From the NCBI GenBank assembly GCA_018669475.1, contig JABHCC010000023.1, positions 1 to 64,000 on the forward strand: a DNA stretch of 64,000 nucleotides, given 5' to 3'. Both the position numbers and the translations under genes were made by a program. The stretch's first letter is position 1. Every line of letters starts with the position of its first letter. The notes under the pieces were generated by a model. That model was not told the origin of the DNA. It made no database searches and worked only from the letters and a program-made list of their open reading frames with translations. Positions 2,146 through 62,771 of this stretch are shown here, piece after piece. This DNA comes from Bacteroidota bacterium (GTDB lineage Bacteria; Bacteroidota; Bacteroidia; Bacteroidales; UBA12481).

Positions 2146-5091
2146 TTACTCTATAATGAGTTCATCAACAAAAACCCAGGCTTTCCCTCCTGCACCTTTA
2201 TGCCAGATGGGGCAAATACCTTTATTCTTAGCTTTGAAACGAATATACCTTGCTGTTCTCCACACATCCAGCTTAAATTCACGGATAAATGCCCCCTGGA
2301 GCTTGTCAGACAATTCATTTTCTACCACCCCGACACTCGTCCAATCCGTACCGTTTAGTGATAGCTCATATTCAACTGATTCAGGCATAAAAATCCAATA
2401 ATCCTGATCCTGAAAACAGCTTAATGCGAGGCGATGAATCGTTTGATTAAATCCCAGATCTATTGTGGCTGAAAGGTCTTTCCCTTCATAGCCCTGCCAT
2501 GCACCCGTTCTGAAATTTCTGGCGCCTCTGATCATATCTATCATGGCCATTTCTCCTCCGGCAGAGTATTGGGGGGTATATTGTGAATGCAACTCGATTT
2601 TTCTACTCGATGAGATTCGATTGAAATAAGCTTCAAATACTGCTGTCTCAATACTATCTTTCACTGCATAAAACCGAACCTTCCTGTCATATGAAATTCT
2701 TAATGGACGTGAATAAACCCTGAAGTTTCCTCTACCAATCTGATTCTGTCTGACAATCTCATAATATATCCGGGCTGTTGAATCTATAGAGGCCAATTCG
2801 ACTAAAGTACTTTCACTGAATGTCCGGTCGCCCGACTTAACATAGGGTGCAATGGTTATTTGATGATCAGAGATTTGAGATTTTGGTCGGTCCTTTTGTT
2901 GTAAACCCCATGAGTAATTAGGTTTATCACCCATAACAAATTCCAATAAGCCGCCATTCATTATTTCTTCATGAAAAATATAAGTCCGACTTAGTTCTTC
3001 ACCATTCAGGCTAAGAGATTGGATATATTTATTGATTTCTGAGCGATTATTGGCCTTGATTCTGAATACAGCGCCATTTTCGAGTGTGATCGAAGCTTCC
3101 GGAAACAGAGGAGTCCCAATTGTATAAACTGGTAATCCGGGAGTAAGTGGATAAAAACCAAGTGCACTTAGCACATACCATGCAGACATTTGTCCACAAT
3201 CCTCATTTCCACATAATCCATCGGGCTGATCTGAATACATCTTGTTCAGAATCTCATCAACATACTTTTGAGTTTTCCATGGCTCACCTGAGTAGGAATA
3301 AAGATAGGCCATATGATGACTCGGTTCATTTCCATGGGCATACTGTCCAATCAGTCCTGTTATATCTGCTTGTTGTCGACCAGTGGTTTCAGACGACTCT
3401 GAAAATAATTGATCAAGTTTAAGATTAAACAGAGAATCCCCTCCTGAAAGTTCAATCAGGCCTGATACATCCTGAGGAACAAAGAAGCTATATTGCCAGG
3501 CATTGGCTTCGGTATAATTAAAGTTCACTTCCTTCGGATTAAAGGGACTAAACCAAACAGCTCCAAGTTTTGCACGCATAAATCCAGATGATGGGTCAAA
3601 CAGGTTCTTGTAGCTTTGGGCTCTTTTAATAAAGTATTCATAATCATCAGAATATCCAAGATCAGATGCAAGCTGAGCAATGCACCAGTCATCATAAGCA
3701 TACTCAAGAGTTTTCGATACTGACTCGCTTTCCTCAGAAGCAGGAATATAGCCAAACTTTTTATAATGATTCAATCCCAGGTGATCCTGCATTGCACTAG
3801 TTTTCATAGCAGTATAGGCCAAATCAATATCATAATCACGAATACCTTTCATATAAGCATCTGCTATTACAGATACTGCATGATATCCGATCATTGTGCC
3901 CGTTTCATTTGCAGCTAATTCCCAGACAGGCAACATACCACCCTCTTCAAACTGAGTTGTAAAAGTTCTGATGAAATTATTCGTCCGGGTGGGTTCGGTA
4001 ATTGTAAATAATGGATGTGTTGCACGAAAGGTATCCCAGAGCGAAAAAAGTGTGTAATTAATATGTTCTTCAGCCTTGTGCACTAATAAATCCCGACCTC
4101 TGTACATACTATCAACATCCATGTACACATTAGGATTTAAATACTGGTGATATAATGCTGTGTAAAAAATTCTTTTTTTTTGATCTGAATTGCTCTGAAT
4201 CTGATATCTGTCAACAACTTCTTTCCAGGCATTCTGAGCCTGATTTTTAATTTTGGTGAAGCTCCAGTGAGGAATTTCAGCATCAAGATTAGCCCTTGCG
4301 CCGTTCACACTAACTGAGGAGATACCTATTTTAACATTTATCCTCTCTTTCTTTTTTGTAGAGAAAGTAAAATGTGCTTTTATCGAATTACCGTTAAGCT
4401 CTCTTCCTGATTTTTTTTTCTCATTTAAGTATAAGCCAAAATCTTTGAAAGGTTTCGAGAATCTCATTACGAAATAAACATACTGATCTCCGGCCCAGCT
4501 TTGAGATCGTCTCAGGCCTTCAATCTCGTATTCACTAATAATTCTGACAAATGAGCTTAGAACATGATCACGATGGACTAAATCAACTATCAGGTTTGAT
4601 TGATCAGATTTTGGAAACTGATAACTATGAAAGCCGGCTCTGCTTGTGGCAGTTAGATTTACCCCAATATCTCCATCATCGAGTTTCACAGAGTAGTAAC
4701 CAGCCTCTGCAATTTCGTTTTCATGACTAAACCCACTACAATATCCGGTAGATGGATCTGCAGGATCGCCATGATTGATCTGAACCTCACCAACTGTAGG
4801 CATCACAAGAATATCACCGTAATCACTTACTCCAGTACCACTTAAATGAGTATGTGAAAAGCCATATATAACACTATCGCTATAATGATAGCCACTACAA
4901 CCTTCCCAACCACTTAGCCTCGTATCAGGACTCAATTGGACCATTCCAAAGGGTAAACTTACACCAGGGTAGGTATGTCCAGCTCCACTAGTCCCAATAA
5001 AAGGATCGATATATGAAATCAGATTGACCTGGCGATCACAAGTCAGAAAGATCAAACAAATCAAGCCAATTCCAATGATTTTTTTTGTCAT
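2146..5091 (-). CDS. GH92 alpha-mannosidase lipoprotein with C-terminal F5/8-type domain
   Basis: Glycoside hydrolase family 92 exo-alpha-mannosidases are Ca2+-dependent enzymes that trim alpha-linked mannose from N-glycans or mannans. The family signatures are clear: YIDPFIGTSG near residue 27, the SGYHYSDS region, GNEPSHH at about 587-593 and NEDCGQMSAW at about 629-638. After the catalytic part comes a beta-rich segment (about 750-830), then a discoidin/F5-8C carbohydrate-binding domain (about 837-981). The frame is open back to 5136, but I start at 5091: this gives a lipoprotein signal (FLTC, lipidated Cys18) and removes a 29-bp overlap with the upstream gene. At 981 residues it is longer than a minimal GH92 because of the extra C-terminal domain. 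It should be anchored in a membrane facing the periplasm or cell surface. It probably shares a transcript with the CBM9-like lipoprotein upstream. Confidence 0.93.
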   Translation of the reverse strand: MTKKIIGIGLICLIFLTCDRQVNLISYIDPFIGTSGAGHTYPGVSLPFGMVQLSPDTRLSGWEGCSGYHYSDSVIYGFSHTHLSGTGVSDYGDILVMPTVGEVQINHGDPADPSTGYCSGFSHENEIAEAGYYSVKLDDGDIGVNLTATSRAGFHSYQFPKSDQSNLIVDLVHRDHVLSSFVRIISEYEIEGLRRSQSWAGDQYVYFVMRFSKPFKDFGLYLNEKKKSGRELNGNSIKAHFTFSTKKKERINVKIGISSVSVNGARANLDAEIPHWSFTKIKNQAQNAWKEVVDRYQIQSNSDQKKRIFYTALYHQYLNPNVYMDVDSMYRGRDLLVHKAEEHINYTLFSLWDTFRATHPLFTITEPTRTNNFIRTFTTQFEEGGMLPVWELAANETGTMIGYHAVSVIADAYMKGIRDYDIDLAYTAMKTSAMQDHLGLNHYKKFGYIPASEESESVSKTLEYAYDDWCIAQLASDLGYSDDYEYFIKRAQSYKNLFDPSSGFMRAKLGAVWFSPFNPKEVNFNYTEANAWQYSFFVPQDVSGLIELSGGDSLFNLKLDQLFSESSETTGRQQADITGLIGQYAHGNEPSHHMAYLYSYSGEPWKTQKYVDEILNKMYSDQPDGLCGNEDCGQMSAWYVLSALGFYPLTPGLPVYTIGTPLFPEASITLENGAVFRIKANNRSEINKYIQSLSLNGEELSRTYIFHEEIMNGGLLEFVMGDKPNYSWGLQQKDRPKSQISDHQITIAPYVKSGDRTFSESTLVELASIDSTARIYYEIVRQNQIGRGNFRVYSRPLRISYDRKVRFYAVKDSIETAVFEAYFNRISSSRKIELHSQYTPQYSAGGEMAMIDMIRGARNFRTGAWQGYEGKDLSATIDLGFNQTIHRLALSCFQDQDYWIFMPESVEYELSLNGTDWTSVGVVENELSDKLQGAFIREFKLDVWRTARYIRFKAKNKGICPIWHKGAGGKAWVFVDELIIE

Positions 5092-5107
5092 GCTCGGTTT
5101 ATCCGGA

Positions 5108-10841: not shown

Positions 10842-11420
10842 TTACTTAAGTGCTGCATCCCGACCAGCTCTCAAAGCGAGAAGGTTTTGCTGAACTACAG
10901 CGTCGCCTTTTCGCTCAAAGATAGCAGAAATACCCGACTCAAGACTTTCAAAATCCAGGCATATATATTGACTTGCAGCGCCTAGAATAACCATATTTGA
11001 TCCTCTTCTATTACCCAAATCCTTTGCTATTTTATCCGCATCTATGATCAGATGATTAGGCCATTCTGCAATTGTATTGAGTATCTTTTCAAGTTCAGGA
11101 TAATCAGGAACATTAATAAATGGGGAAGAATTACACACCAACCATCCATTTTTATTTAGAAATGGTAAATACCTTAATGTTTCTAGTGGTTCTACTGACA
11201 AAATCAGATCGGCTTGACCAAGTGGCACCAGATCAGATGCGACAGGGGTATCAGCAATTCTGAAGTTAGATTGCACAGCCCCACCCCGCTGACTCATCCC
11301 GTGAACTTCTGATTGTTTAAAATATAGTTTCTCTTTGAGAGTAGCCATACCAATAATACCTGCAATGGTTAAAATACCCTGCCCTCCTACTCCAGAAAGT
11401 ATAATATTTGATTTTTTCAT
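10842..11420 (-). CDS. iorB: Indolepyruvate:ferredoxin oxidoreductase beta subunit
   Basis: The IorB subunit (about 192 residues) has the gamma-type 2-oxoacid oxidoreductase fold. Evidence is the N-terminal ILSGVGGQGILT motif, the SEVHGMSQRGGAVQSNFRI segment and the ADLILSVEPLETLR stretch, all typical of IorB. With IorA it oxidatively decarboxylates arylpyruvates from aromatic amino acids to aryl-acetyl-CoA, reducing ferredoxin. ATGs lie at 11420 and 11426. I prefer 11420 because its upstream bases align with the leader of the mmdC-like gene. The gene follows iorA on the same strand after a 97-bp intergenic stretch that holds one copy of the repeated element described below. Confidence 0.9.
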   Translation of the reverse strand: MKKSNIILSGVGGQGILTIAGIIGMATLKEKLYFKQSEVHGMSQRGGAVQSNFRIADTPVASDLVPLGQADLILSVEPLETLRYLPFLNKNGWLVCNSSPFINVPDYPELEKILNTIAEWPNHLIIDADKIAKDLGNRRGSNMVILGAASQYICLDFESLESGISAIFERKGDAVVQQNLLALRAGRDAALK

Positions 11421-11517
11421 CCCCATATATTTAATTTTATTTGTCGGATGGAGCTCGCACAACAAAAACAATCATCCGTGTGTGTGTTAAAATATTTTTC
11501 CTTTTGTCATGCTCGGT
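11421..11517 (-). repeat. Intergenic element, copy A (iorA-iorB)
   Basis: Fills the whole iorA-iorB gap. On the minus strand it runs ACCGAGCATGACAAAA, an ACACACAC run, GGATGATTGTTTTTG, GAGCTCCATCCG, then CAAATAAAATTAAATATA before the start codon. It aligns with copy C (62654-62771) from stop codon to start codon, and in its middle with copy B (60789-60870). A helix CGGATG/CATCCG (plus-strand bases 11445-11450 with 11473-11478) can form in the RNA. Function unknown. Confidence 0.6.
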
Positions 11518-13140
11518 TCATGATTTCGTGGATAAGGATTTGGTTTCTACTTCAATGCGTTTTCGTTTCGAGGCTGTTTGAATACACTCGCGTCGAGCAA
11601 TTATCACAGATATGCCATGATAATTTAACTCATTAAGAATCACTTGAACATTCTCATCATGGTTCTTTTTCAAAGGAGTCACAATTTTTAAATGAGATTC
11701 TTCTACTCCAATACCCAGGCAAATTCCTTCAATTCTCCCCACTGCTGAAGACACCTGACCTCCTGTCATTCCAGTGGTTTCATTATCAGAGATAATAATT
11801 GTTATTGGAGAATTCTCAATAACTGCATCTAACAGGCCGGTCATCCCTGAATGTGTAAATGTTGAATCTCCAATAACTGCAACTGATGGTACAAGACCTG
11901 CATCAGCAGCTCCTTTCGCCATAGTAATACTGGCTCCCATATCCACACAGGTATTAATTGCATTATATGGAGGCAGAGCTCCCAGCGTGTAACAACCAAT
12001 ATCAGCGAAAGTGCGACCTTCACCAAAATCAGTTAATGCTTCAATAAGTGAATGATAGATATCAATATGACCACAACCTTTGCACAAAGCAGGAGGTCGG
12101 TTAACCATTATCTCAGGAATTTCAGGACCATTATGCACTTCCATACCCAATGCCTTTCGTACCAGATCAGAGTTTAATTCACCATCCCTTGGCAGGCTAC
12201 CGTCTAACCTTCCCCTGATAGGAACAGGGCTATTATTCAGGAGACCAAGCAGGGATTTCTCAAGTATTGGATACCCTTCTTCCAAAACAAGAATCTCCTT
12301 GCACGATGAAGTGATTTCCTTAATTTTCTTGACCGGTACCGGATACTGACCTATCTTTAATACAGGATGAGGAATACCTTCAGGATAATTCTCCATAAGG
12401 TAATTATGTGAAATTCCGCACGCAATAATTCCAAGAGACCGATCATTACCATCTTTAAGCGTATTATAAGCAGCATTTTCGCTTAGTTCGGTGAGATCAT
12501 CCTGAAGATTTAGTAGCAGCTTATACCTTTCCCTTGCTATGCTAGGAAGAAGAATAAACTTTTTCTTGTCATCGGGCAATTTCAACTCATTCTCTGCAAT
12601 ATTTTTCATACGCAGAACTCTTGACCGCGAATGCGACAATCGAGTGGTTATTCTCATTAACACAGGAAGGCCTACTTTTTCTGAGAGAGAAAAACCATTA
12701 TATGCCATATCATATGCCTCTTGCTGATCAGCGGGTTCAAGAATAGGTAATAGAGCAAAATCGCCGTAAAACCTTGAATCCTGCTCATTTTGCGAGGAAT
12801 GCATTGATGGATCATCAGCTACAACAACAATTAATCCACCACCTGCTCCAGTTATAGCAGAATTTATAAAAGGGTCAGCAGCAACATTTAATCCAACGTG
12901 CTTCATACACACCATTGCCCTTTTTCCTGCATATGACATCCCAATAGCAGACTCCATAGCAGTTTTCTCATTTGCTGACCATTCTGAATGTATCCCCTCT
13001 TTACGGGCACCCGAATTTCTTTGAATATATTCAGTGATTTCAGTTGATGGTGTACCCGGATAGGCATAAACTCCTGACATGCCTCCATCAATTGCACCCT
13101 GAGCAATAGCCTCAGCACCTAATAATACAACTTCGTTCAT
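11518..13140 (-). CDS. iorA: Indolepyruvate:ferredoxin oxidoreductase alpha subunit, no ferredoxin domain
   Basis: A 540-residue IorA. The pyrimidine-binding part of the fold is at the N-terminus (GVYAYPGTPSTEITE, about 23-37). CKGCGH at 353-358 and the thiamine-diphosphate motif starting GDS at 424-426 mark the PP domain. IorA oxidises indolepyruvate and related arylpyruvates with ferredoxin as acceptor. Archaeal IorA proteins end in a domain with two [4Fe-4S] clusters. This protein stops about 25 residues after the IIARREC strand and lacks the cysteine-rich tail, so electrons must leave by another route, perhaps a separate ferredoxin. Shorter IorA proteins are, I believe, usual in Bacteroidota, so this is probably not a local truncation. 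The start is 12 bp after the yjbQ-like stop, so an operon yjbQ-iorA-iorB is likely. Confidence 0.9.
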   Translation of the reverse strand: MNEVVLLGAEAIAQGAIDGGMSGVYAYPGTPSTEITEYIQRNSGARKEGIHSEWSANEKTAMESAIGMSYAGKRAMVCMKHVGLNVAADPFINSAITGAGGGLIVVVADDPSMHSSQNEQDSRFYGDFALLPILEPADQQEAYDMAYNGFSLSEKVGLPVLMRITTRLSHSRSRVLRMKNIAENELKLPDDKKKFILLPSIARERYKLLLNLQDDLTELSENAAYNTLKDGNDRSLGIIACGISHNYLMENYPEGIPHPVLKIGQYPVPVKKIKEITSSCKEILVLEEGYPILEKSLLGLLNNSPVPIRGRLDGSLPRDGELNSDLVRKALGMEVHNGPEIPEIMVNRPPALCKGCGHIDIYHSLIEALTDFGEGRTFADIGCYTLGALPPYNAINTCVDMGASITMAKGAADAGLVPSVAVIGDSTFTHSGMTGLLDAVIENSPITIIISDNETTGMTGGQVSSAVGRIEGICLGIGVEESHLKIVTPLKKNHDENVQVILNELNYHGISVIIARRECIQTASKRKRIEVETKSLSTKS

Positions 13141-60768: not shown

Positions 60769-60788
60769 CATTTTCATCCGCTTATTTT

Positions 60789-60870
60789 TAGATTTATAAT
60801 CCTTGGATGGAGCTCTTATATCAAATAAAAACCATCGTCATGTGTGTTTAAATGACTCGGTATTCGTTCA
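60789..60870 (-). repeat. Intergenic element, copy B (mmdB-citDE)
   Basis: On the minus strand: ACCGAG, then TTTAAACACACATGACGATGG, TTTTTATTTG, GAGCTCCATCC and ATTATAAATC. It shares GAGCTCCATCC and the preceding ACACAC and T-rich parts with copy A, but lacks about 20 bases between ACCGAG and the ACAC run. The helix GATGG/CCATC can form in the RNA. Confidence 0.5.
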
Positions 60871-60884
60871 GTTGATAATATAAA

Positions 60885-62233: not shown

Positions 62234-62653
62234 TTAAATAATTTCAAATAATAAATCACCTTGCAACACAGCATCACCAACAGAGACCTTAATTTCACCT
62301 ATTGTACCATCTTTTTCTGCCAGCACCTTGTTTTCCATCTTCATGGCTTCATATATCAATACCATGTCTCCTTTTGCAACTACATCACCAGTTTTTTTTG
62401 TCACCTGCATAATATTTCCCGGCAAAGGTGCTTTGATCAGGGTAACACCATCTGTCTTTGAGATTTTTGCAGCATTTTCTGGTGCTTTTATCCGCTTCCG
62501 AATCAAAGTTGGAGTTTTCGTAGGAATAACTTCTTTCTGAACCCCAACATCATAAGTAGTCCCATTTACCTCAACAACAGCCACATTACCTTCAACTTCC
62601 TTTATTTCAACCTCGTAAGGATTACCTTGTATCTTGAATTTAAATTTCTTCAT
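62234..62653 (-). CDS. mmdC: Biotin carrier subunit of the decarboxylase
   Basis: A 139-residue biotinyl carrier protein. The C-terminal biotinyl domain (about 68-139) contains YEAMKMENKV with the biotinylated lysine at 105; the N-terminal part resembles the flexible linker and strand region of MmdC, but lacks a long Ala/Pro-rich run. Biotin carries CO2 from the carboxyltransferase to the membrane pump. It is 2 bp before mmdB and 118 bp after the gamma/delta subunit gene; that gap holds repeat copy C. Confidence 0.92.
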   Translation of the reverse strand: MKKFKFKIQGNPYEVEIKEVEGNVAVVEVNGTTYDVGVQKEVIPTKTPTLIRKRIKAPENAAKISKTDGVTLIKAPLPGNIMQVTKKTGDVVAKGDMVLIYEAMKMENKVLAEKDGTIGEIKVSVGDAVLQGDLLFEII

Positions 62654-62771
62654 CCGTCTATATTTAATTTATTTGTTCCCGGATTGAATCGGGATAGCCC
62701 ACACAATAAAAAAAATCATCATCCCAGTGTGTCAAGATGGTTTTGTTTATTGCCATGCTTGTTTCATAATG
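62654..62771 (-). repeat. Intergenic element, copy C (OadG-mmdC)
   Basis: Minus strand: ATGAAACAAGCATGGCAA, GACACACTGGGATGATGATTT..., ATTGTGTGGGCTATCCCG, an extra hairpin CCCGATT/AATCCGGG, then CAAATAAATTAAATATA before the mmdC start. It aligns with copy A from end to end, including the bases just before the ATG. The helix TGGGAT/ATCCCG replaces CGGATG/CATCCG of copy A. Confidence 0.6.

Follow-up and report, generated by a model that had tools for sequence, protein, structure and literature searches.

A short folded repeat of Bacteroidota that often ends in start codons and carries a putative inner guide

Three intergenic gaps in a 64-kb window (the whole stretch of DNA that was analysed) hold copies, named A, B and C, of one short folded repeat element. 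The element typically begins and ends in ATGAA(A), has a length of about 85-110 bp and is scattered through the genome of the window and other Bacteroidota, mostly with its right end in the start codon of the next gene. The explanation judged best, which is held to be probable with modest confidence, is that of a mobile element that is not autonomous: its fold and an inner guide would mark its ends and its target ATGAAA, in a manner resembling IS200/IS605, and its insertions would survive at start codons.

Results

Copies in the window and in its genome

The initial annotation had described the three gaps as related on the minus strand, and this was confirmed: the alignment of A with C runs from one end to the other, that of B covers the full length of B, and the shared blocks stand in the order described. 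The extents of the copies were revised to about 11415-11522, 60772-60877 and 62648-62768. The features in the window are as follows.

11415..11522 (-), copy A, whole element (R2 97.4 bits, E 2.2e-15; R1 136.8 bits)
11502..11512 (-), 5' arm of the long hairpin of A, GCATGACAAAA (sequence and minimum-energy fold)
11457..11467 (-), 3' arm of the long hairpin of A, TTTTGTTGTGC (sequence and minimum-energy fold)
11445..11450 (-), putative inner guide of A, CATCCG (from the sequence; its right-end partner covaries in relatives)
11418..11423 (-), right end of A, GGGATG, which holds the iorB start codon (5 of 6 pairs with the guide)
60772..60877 (-), copy B, older (R2 58.7 bits, E 2.8e-8; R1 67.6 bits)
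62648..62768 (-), copy C, older, with an extra small hairpin (R2 50.2 bits, E 9.9e-7; R1 72.1 bits)
5083..5101 (-), probable left-end relic, TAAACCGAGCATGACAAAA (5083-5103: CGGATAAACCGAGCATGACAAAAA; left-end scan with 1 mismatch; R2 E 4.6 only)

Copy A extends from the ATGA of the iorA stop to the iorB start codon, copy C terminates in the start codon of the mmdC-like gene, and about 25 nt separate the right end of copy B, CGGATGAA, from the citDE start further downstream. An alignment of A and C from stop codon to start codon had also been proposed; the two do align end to end, but among the three copies the stop/start overlap is found only in A, and the stop upstream of C is a separate TAA, a few bases ahead of ATGAAAC.

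In the genome of the window (G000, 5.56 Mb, 215 contigs), copy A as the sole query gave 46 matches (40 of 148 candidates scored), and a 30-base core with up to 3 mismatches was present in 72 copies, the reversed pattern in 0. A covariance model built from 23 copies (R1) recovered 137 matches with E values of 1 or less; this number is a minimum, since 150 of 4133 candidates were scored. Because A, B and C helped to build R1, the proof beyond chance rests on the rest of the genome. The structure predicted for R1 was subsequently replaced by that of R2. The earlier suggestion of a small interspersed repeat with further genomic copies is thus borne out by at least 137 R1 matches in the same genome.

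The 64 best-scoring copies in G000 had a mean identity to the consensus of 94%. A short class (14 of the 137 copies, 50-54 bp long, e.g. L096, L139 and L080) was also seen; most of its members look deleted between the inner and the terminal CGGATGA, and many still end at a start codon. Head-to-tail copies that share one ATGA occur in G000, and arrays of two or three are frequent in McBI.38 (Bacteroidales bacterium).

Distribution among genomes

Among 295 genomes of the order Bacteroidales, with 13 candidates scored per genome, 101 matched R2; in the sample of the phylum Bacteroidota, with 9 scored per genome, 28 of 395 did. G000 is counted in both samples. A 21-base pattern recovered at least 120 stretches, and Bacteroidota names stand on 79 of 80 among the matches listed. 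These include isolates of Chryseobacterium, Pedobacter, Epilithonimonas and Winogradskyella, which are backed by R2 with E values from 3e-7 to 6e-4.

On a contig labelled Deltaproteobacteria (L271, 2372-2468, minus strand), the element equals that of a Flavobacteriaceae locus (L281) in length, score and GC; the label is perhaps a binning error.

Plasmid and phage collections searched with one element, and viral contigs searched with one 21-base pattern, returned zero matches. Rfam gave nothing in the window at the gathering threshold and, in 17 relative loci, only tRNA and a sub-threshold mir-1422 match over the L028 element (28.3 bits against 60). In the open PMC literature, from which subscription journals are mostly absent, no description of this element was found.

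Conserved fold and inner guide

Among relatives, the sequence of the element changes while the fold stays. The long hairpin, formed by GCATGACAAAA with TTTTGTTGTGC in A, reaches 20 pairs in L025 of G050. Directly 3' of it lies CATNNG, the putative guide, and its complement CNNATG is the right end of the element; the pairing of the two is referred to as P2. The guide and right end occur as CATCCG/CGGATG, CATCTG/CAGATG, CATATG/CATATG, CATGTG/CACATG and CATAAG/CTTATG, and the guide with its neighbours, TTCCATCTG, complements CAGATGAAA in sequence save one base.

In a MAFFT alignment (A3), paired cells amounted to 91.3%; shuffling gave 84.2% and sliding 19-43%. Changes on both sides of a pair were seen in 35 cells against 11.2 in the shuffled alignments, and pairs with two-sided change numbered 6 against 4.2, a value reached by 42 of 500 shuffles. 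In an alignment fitted to the model (A4), 96.5% of the cells were paired against 83.9%, with 114 changes on both sides against 20.6. Independently of alignment, an exact 6-base complement of the element's own right end was held by 155 of 182 elements from other genomes (drawn from 197 matches, with 15 left out, some of them end-clipped, overlapping, short or weak, and one, L283, for no good reason). Where the right end is not CAGATG (43 unique elements), 26 have a guide complementary to their own right end, and 10 have the majority guide. Covariation also extends to the foot of the stem, where a GA/GA tandem (40 of 92 rows) gives way to AT/AT (7) or GC/GC (3). These sequence comparisons indicate that the long hairpin and the guide/right-end pairing covary across genomes.

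The helix named in the initial annotation, CGGATG/CATCCG, can form in A. It was rejected as the conserved helix, since in relatives the first arm has no complement. The idea of a structured element survives in that a conserved fold exists, different from the helix named, and compensatory changes in related genomes are present on both A3 and A4.

In L198, L200, L212 and L220, about 25-40 extra bases lie inside the hairpin and partly pair.

Position at start codons

Copy ends were read from the fetched flanks of the 137 matches in G000. A terminal ATGA was present in 125 copies and absent from 12, and in 101 of the 125 this ATG begins a reading frame that either has 60 codons or more or runs off the fetched stretch without a stop. 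The other 36 copies consist of 4 more exact starts (3 ATG, 1 GTG), 8 followed by another copy and 24 remaining, half of which (12) have a same-strand start within 50 nt. Among the non-tandem copies, 105 of 129 (81%) end exactly in the start codon of the next gene. The terminal hexamers are ATGAAA (95), ATGAAT (13), ATGAAC (13), ATGAAG (3) and ATGACT (1); the last is a mis-picked ATGAAT copy. Terminal ATGAA was counted in 124 of the 125. The left-end ATGA was seen in 96 of the 137 matches, the rest being truncated or changed.

For the null, 20 stretches of 20 kb from G000 that hold none of the 137 copies were used. Their ATGAA sites comprised 78 called starts, 221 other noncoding sites and 1515 sites inside genes; when ATGAAA was counted instead, shorter genes were admitted and every early in-frame ATG could serve as a start, the split became 61 to 59. 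The expected share at starts is 26-51%, whereas 81% was observed (p 3e-39 to 5e-13 across all versions). These results indicate that an ATGAAA target together with loss of insertions from genes explains part of the start-codon excess, but not all of it.

The 182 elements from other genomes comprised 118 at starts, 27 in tandem and 37 others, several of which meet the contig end or a further copy. In G261, which has six copies with equal scores, 6 of 11 copies end at a start, so that young copies may be less concentrated, on a small number. The best reading of these distributions is that selection, targeting or both concentrate the element at starts.

Copies that do not end at a start codon, which could help to separate targeting from selection, include L193 of G223 and L368, L370, L371, L375 and L376 of G261.

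Empty and filled sites

A genome of the same family, G005, has no element between iorA and iorB, which overlap there in the ATGA that the element occupies in G000. The element is absent from this gap in G004 too, where stop and start lie a few bases apart; in G001, the other genome of the genus examined (62% complete), neither the element nor the iorA-iorB region was found. L227 and L268, whose flanks are 97% identical, differ by the presence of the element at the ATG of a 215-codon gene. The empty site reads ATG CAT AAA CTT and the filled site ATG-element-ATG AAA AAA CTT; the CAT codon may have been lost on insertion, be a remnant of excision or reflect drift. In G092, L457, which matches at 72% identity, reads ATGAAA CAACTC at the place where L383 carries an array of three copies, flanked by ATGAAA on one side and ATGAAA CAACTA on the other. 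A further nearly empty place, L437, lies upstream of a start, not at it.

Two RAYT genes of G039 carry the element near the 5' end of the coding part, at TTGAAA.

L172 1368-1462 (-), element inside a RAYT gene, antisense to the gene
L179 1362-1456 (-), element inside a RAYT gene, antisense to the gene

Start codons are therefore not the sole target. ATGAA(A) stands on both sides of the element, and the empty sites fit either a target-site duplication or an end brought along. Taken together, the empty sites in relatives show that insertion occurs at start codons, which the element would rebuild.

A reading in which the element forms a phylum-wide class of start-codon homing elements is possible but doubtful. 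Here the inner guide would direct sense-strand insertion after ATG, and the element would be a portable translation leader. If it were true, at least 100 genes of one cell would be read from the start codons of a selfish repeat.

Search for the moving enzyme

A single Y1 gene was found in G000; it belongs to the IS200 family (69.3 bits, with a cut-off of 55) and has no element nearby. Scans of Y1 and RAYT loci covered the fetched loci, about 1.5 kb on each side or less. At the Y1 loci, R1 found no element and R2 with filters off found nothing below E 1 at 27 of 29, the G039 insertions excepted; in flanks read by eye, Y1 genes were not recognised as element carriers. A longer, enzyme-bearing version was considered and rejected, as end scans of G000 yielded no distant left/right pair among the left-end matches listed, of 105.

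The element and RAYT genes tend to occur in the same genomes: of the 295, with an E cut-off of 1e-20, 41 have both, 60 the element only, 20 RAYT only and 174 neither (Fisher p 5e-9). For the Bacteroidetes RAYT subclass 2.6, the sections of PMC6006769 on these genes report atypical secondary structures around them, with copies elsewhere in the genomes, and no GT[AG]G. The element might accordingly be a REP-like repeat moved specifically by this subclass, whose repeats are described as atypical; we regard this as unlikely. At E up to 1e-10, no RAYT match was obtained in G000 or in 10 more of 41 element-rich genomes, the element lies within 1.5 kb at only 1 of 30 RAYT loci, and in the loci read the RAYT genes are flanked by other palindromes.

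The element resembles REP sequences in being short, folded, extragenic, of high copy number and non-autonomous, as well as in the co-occurrence with RAYT genes. It differs from them in length (about 100 bp, compared to 21-65 nt), in beginning and ending in ATGAA, in the foot of its stem (AACGA/GAGTTC or covarying forms, with no GT[AG]G) and in not flanking the RAYT genes examined; the family may overlap with the subclass 2.6 repeats.

Strand of the folded form

On A4, G.U cells outnumber A.C cells 29 to 2, and in P2, located alignment-free in 160 of 165 elements, 9 to 1, an excess that speaks for the sense strand. On A3 the counts were 19 to 13, which is not significant (13 to 6 in G000 rows, 6 to 7 in others). 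For 154 elements folded with RNA parameters, the mean z was -2.99 for sense and -2.14 for antisense, whereas the mean energy was lower for antisense; with DNA parameters, the two strands were about equal. These predicted folding energies do not decide the strand.

Movement as RNA, in which a transcript would insert into mRNAs at AUGAAA and then be copied back, would favour both starts and the sense orientation. The start-codon excess beyond the null and the G.U counts on A4 and in P2 are in line with it, but the A3 counts, the antisense insertion in RAYT genes and the lack of any catalytic core seen in the element make it distinctly unlikely.

Downstream genes and conservation within young copies

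The initial annotation had tied the element to ferredoxin- and CoA-linked acid metabolism. That link was not upheld: a set of 101 proteins encoded downstream of copies has matches to 129 Pfam families, each with 3 members at most. Housekeeping proteins, for example GidA, histidinol dehydrogenase and chorismate synthase, are among them.

Substitutions per site in the 64 young copies came to 0.054 overall; the values were 0.083 for the loop and linker, 0.039 for the guide, 0.104 for the right-end ACG and 0.013 for the final GATGAA. The start codon is thus kept without special conservation of the right-end bases that pair with the guide, which argues for a selfish repeat rather than a regulator. 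The left end and the arms also vary less than the loop, for which the selfish-repeat reading does not account.

A cis-regulatory RNA that masks the start codon within P2, spread to many genes by selection or copying, is a highly improbable alternative. In its favour, the start codon lies within P2, this pairing covaries across the phylum, and copies end exactly at starts. Against it, the target genes are unrelated and include housekeeping ones, P2 is not specially kept in the young copies, orthologous genes in close relatives lack the element, head-to-tail arrays occur, and in G039 P2 is kept with CAGAAG replacing CAGATG, away from a start.

A conserved small peptide encoded in the element was rejected, as, by eye, reading frames and stop codons differ from genome to genome, and so was a promoter within it, as the promoter-like words of G000 are not kept by eye in relatives. 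Copies in G013 have a frame of 20-odd codons that is not common to other genomes.

Discussion

In the favoured reading of the element as a non-autonomous mobile element, the folded strand would be recognised by an enzyme acting in trans, for which a single-strand transposase (HUH, Y1) is the most plausible candidate. The inner guide would pair with both ends and thereby set the target ATGAAA, as in IS200/IS605. The right end would regenerate ATGAAA and add an A-rich leader, so that a gene entered at its start codon would stay readable; with insertions inside genes mostly lost, start codons would be where copies remain. Several observations count against this reading: REP-type and Y1 genes are rarely adjacent and no RAYT match is found in G000, the start-codon excess is above what target plus loss predicts, the empty L227/L268 site differs by the CAT codon, and the element has a single hairpin with the guide 3' of it.

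The likeness to IS200/IS605 lies in the folded ends, a short fixed oligonucleotide at the left end (here ATGA) and a guide complementary to the cleavage site, which in IS200/IS605, according to the part of PMC6006769 that treats them, sets the target and lies 5' of the hairpin. The element differs in having one long hairpin and the guide pairing instead of a hairpin at both ends, and in the position of its guide, which is 3' of the hairpin on the sense strand; the other strand would place it 5'. In addition, no linked transposase was found for the element, and its target sits on start codons. As with MITEs, the element is short, non-autonomous and dispersed, with a possible target duplication, but no terminal inverted repeats are visible when its ends are compared by eye.

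Putative mobile promoters place similar 5' regions ahead of unrelated genes. The element, by contrast, conserves a structure that ends in the start codon, and no promoter motif was seen by eye to be kept. TAACTGA heptamer repeats stand directly before start codons of unrelated genes, in a few Bacteroidetes too (PMC4679880); in the portion of that report bearing on them, they are seven-base direct repeats of another sequence, with no conserved fold reported.

The covariation of the guide predicts that a changed guide would go with a changed target. Mobile elements usually harm the gene that they enter. For this element, the target hexamer, the right end and the start codon coincide, so that insertion would leave the coding sequence whole, which would explain how a genome could be filled by an element of no evident benefit. 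The family, found across Bacteroidota, takes the place of the 5' leader in many genes, at times together with their first codons, and it therefore has a bearing on start-site annotation and expression.

In the window, the relic at 5083-5103 on the minus strand directly precedes a lipoprotein-like gene. The start of this gene is probably the inner ATG of the relic at 5091, not 5136.
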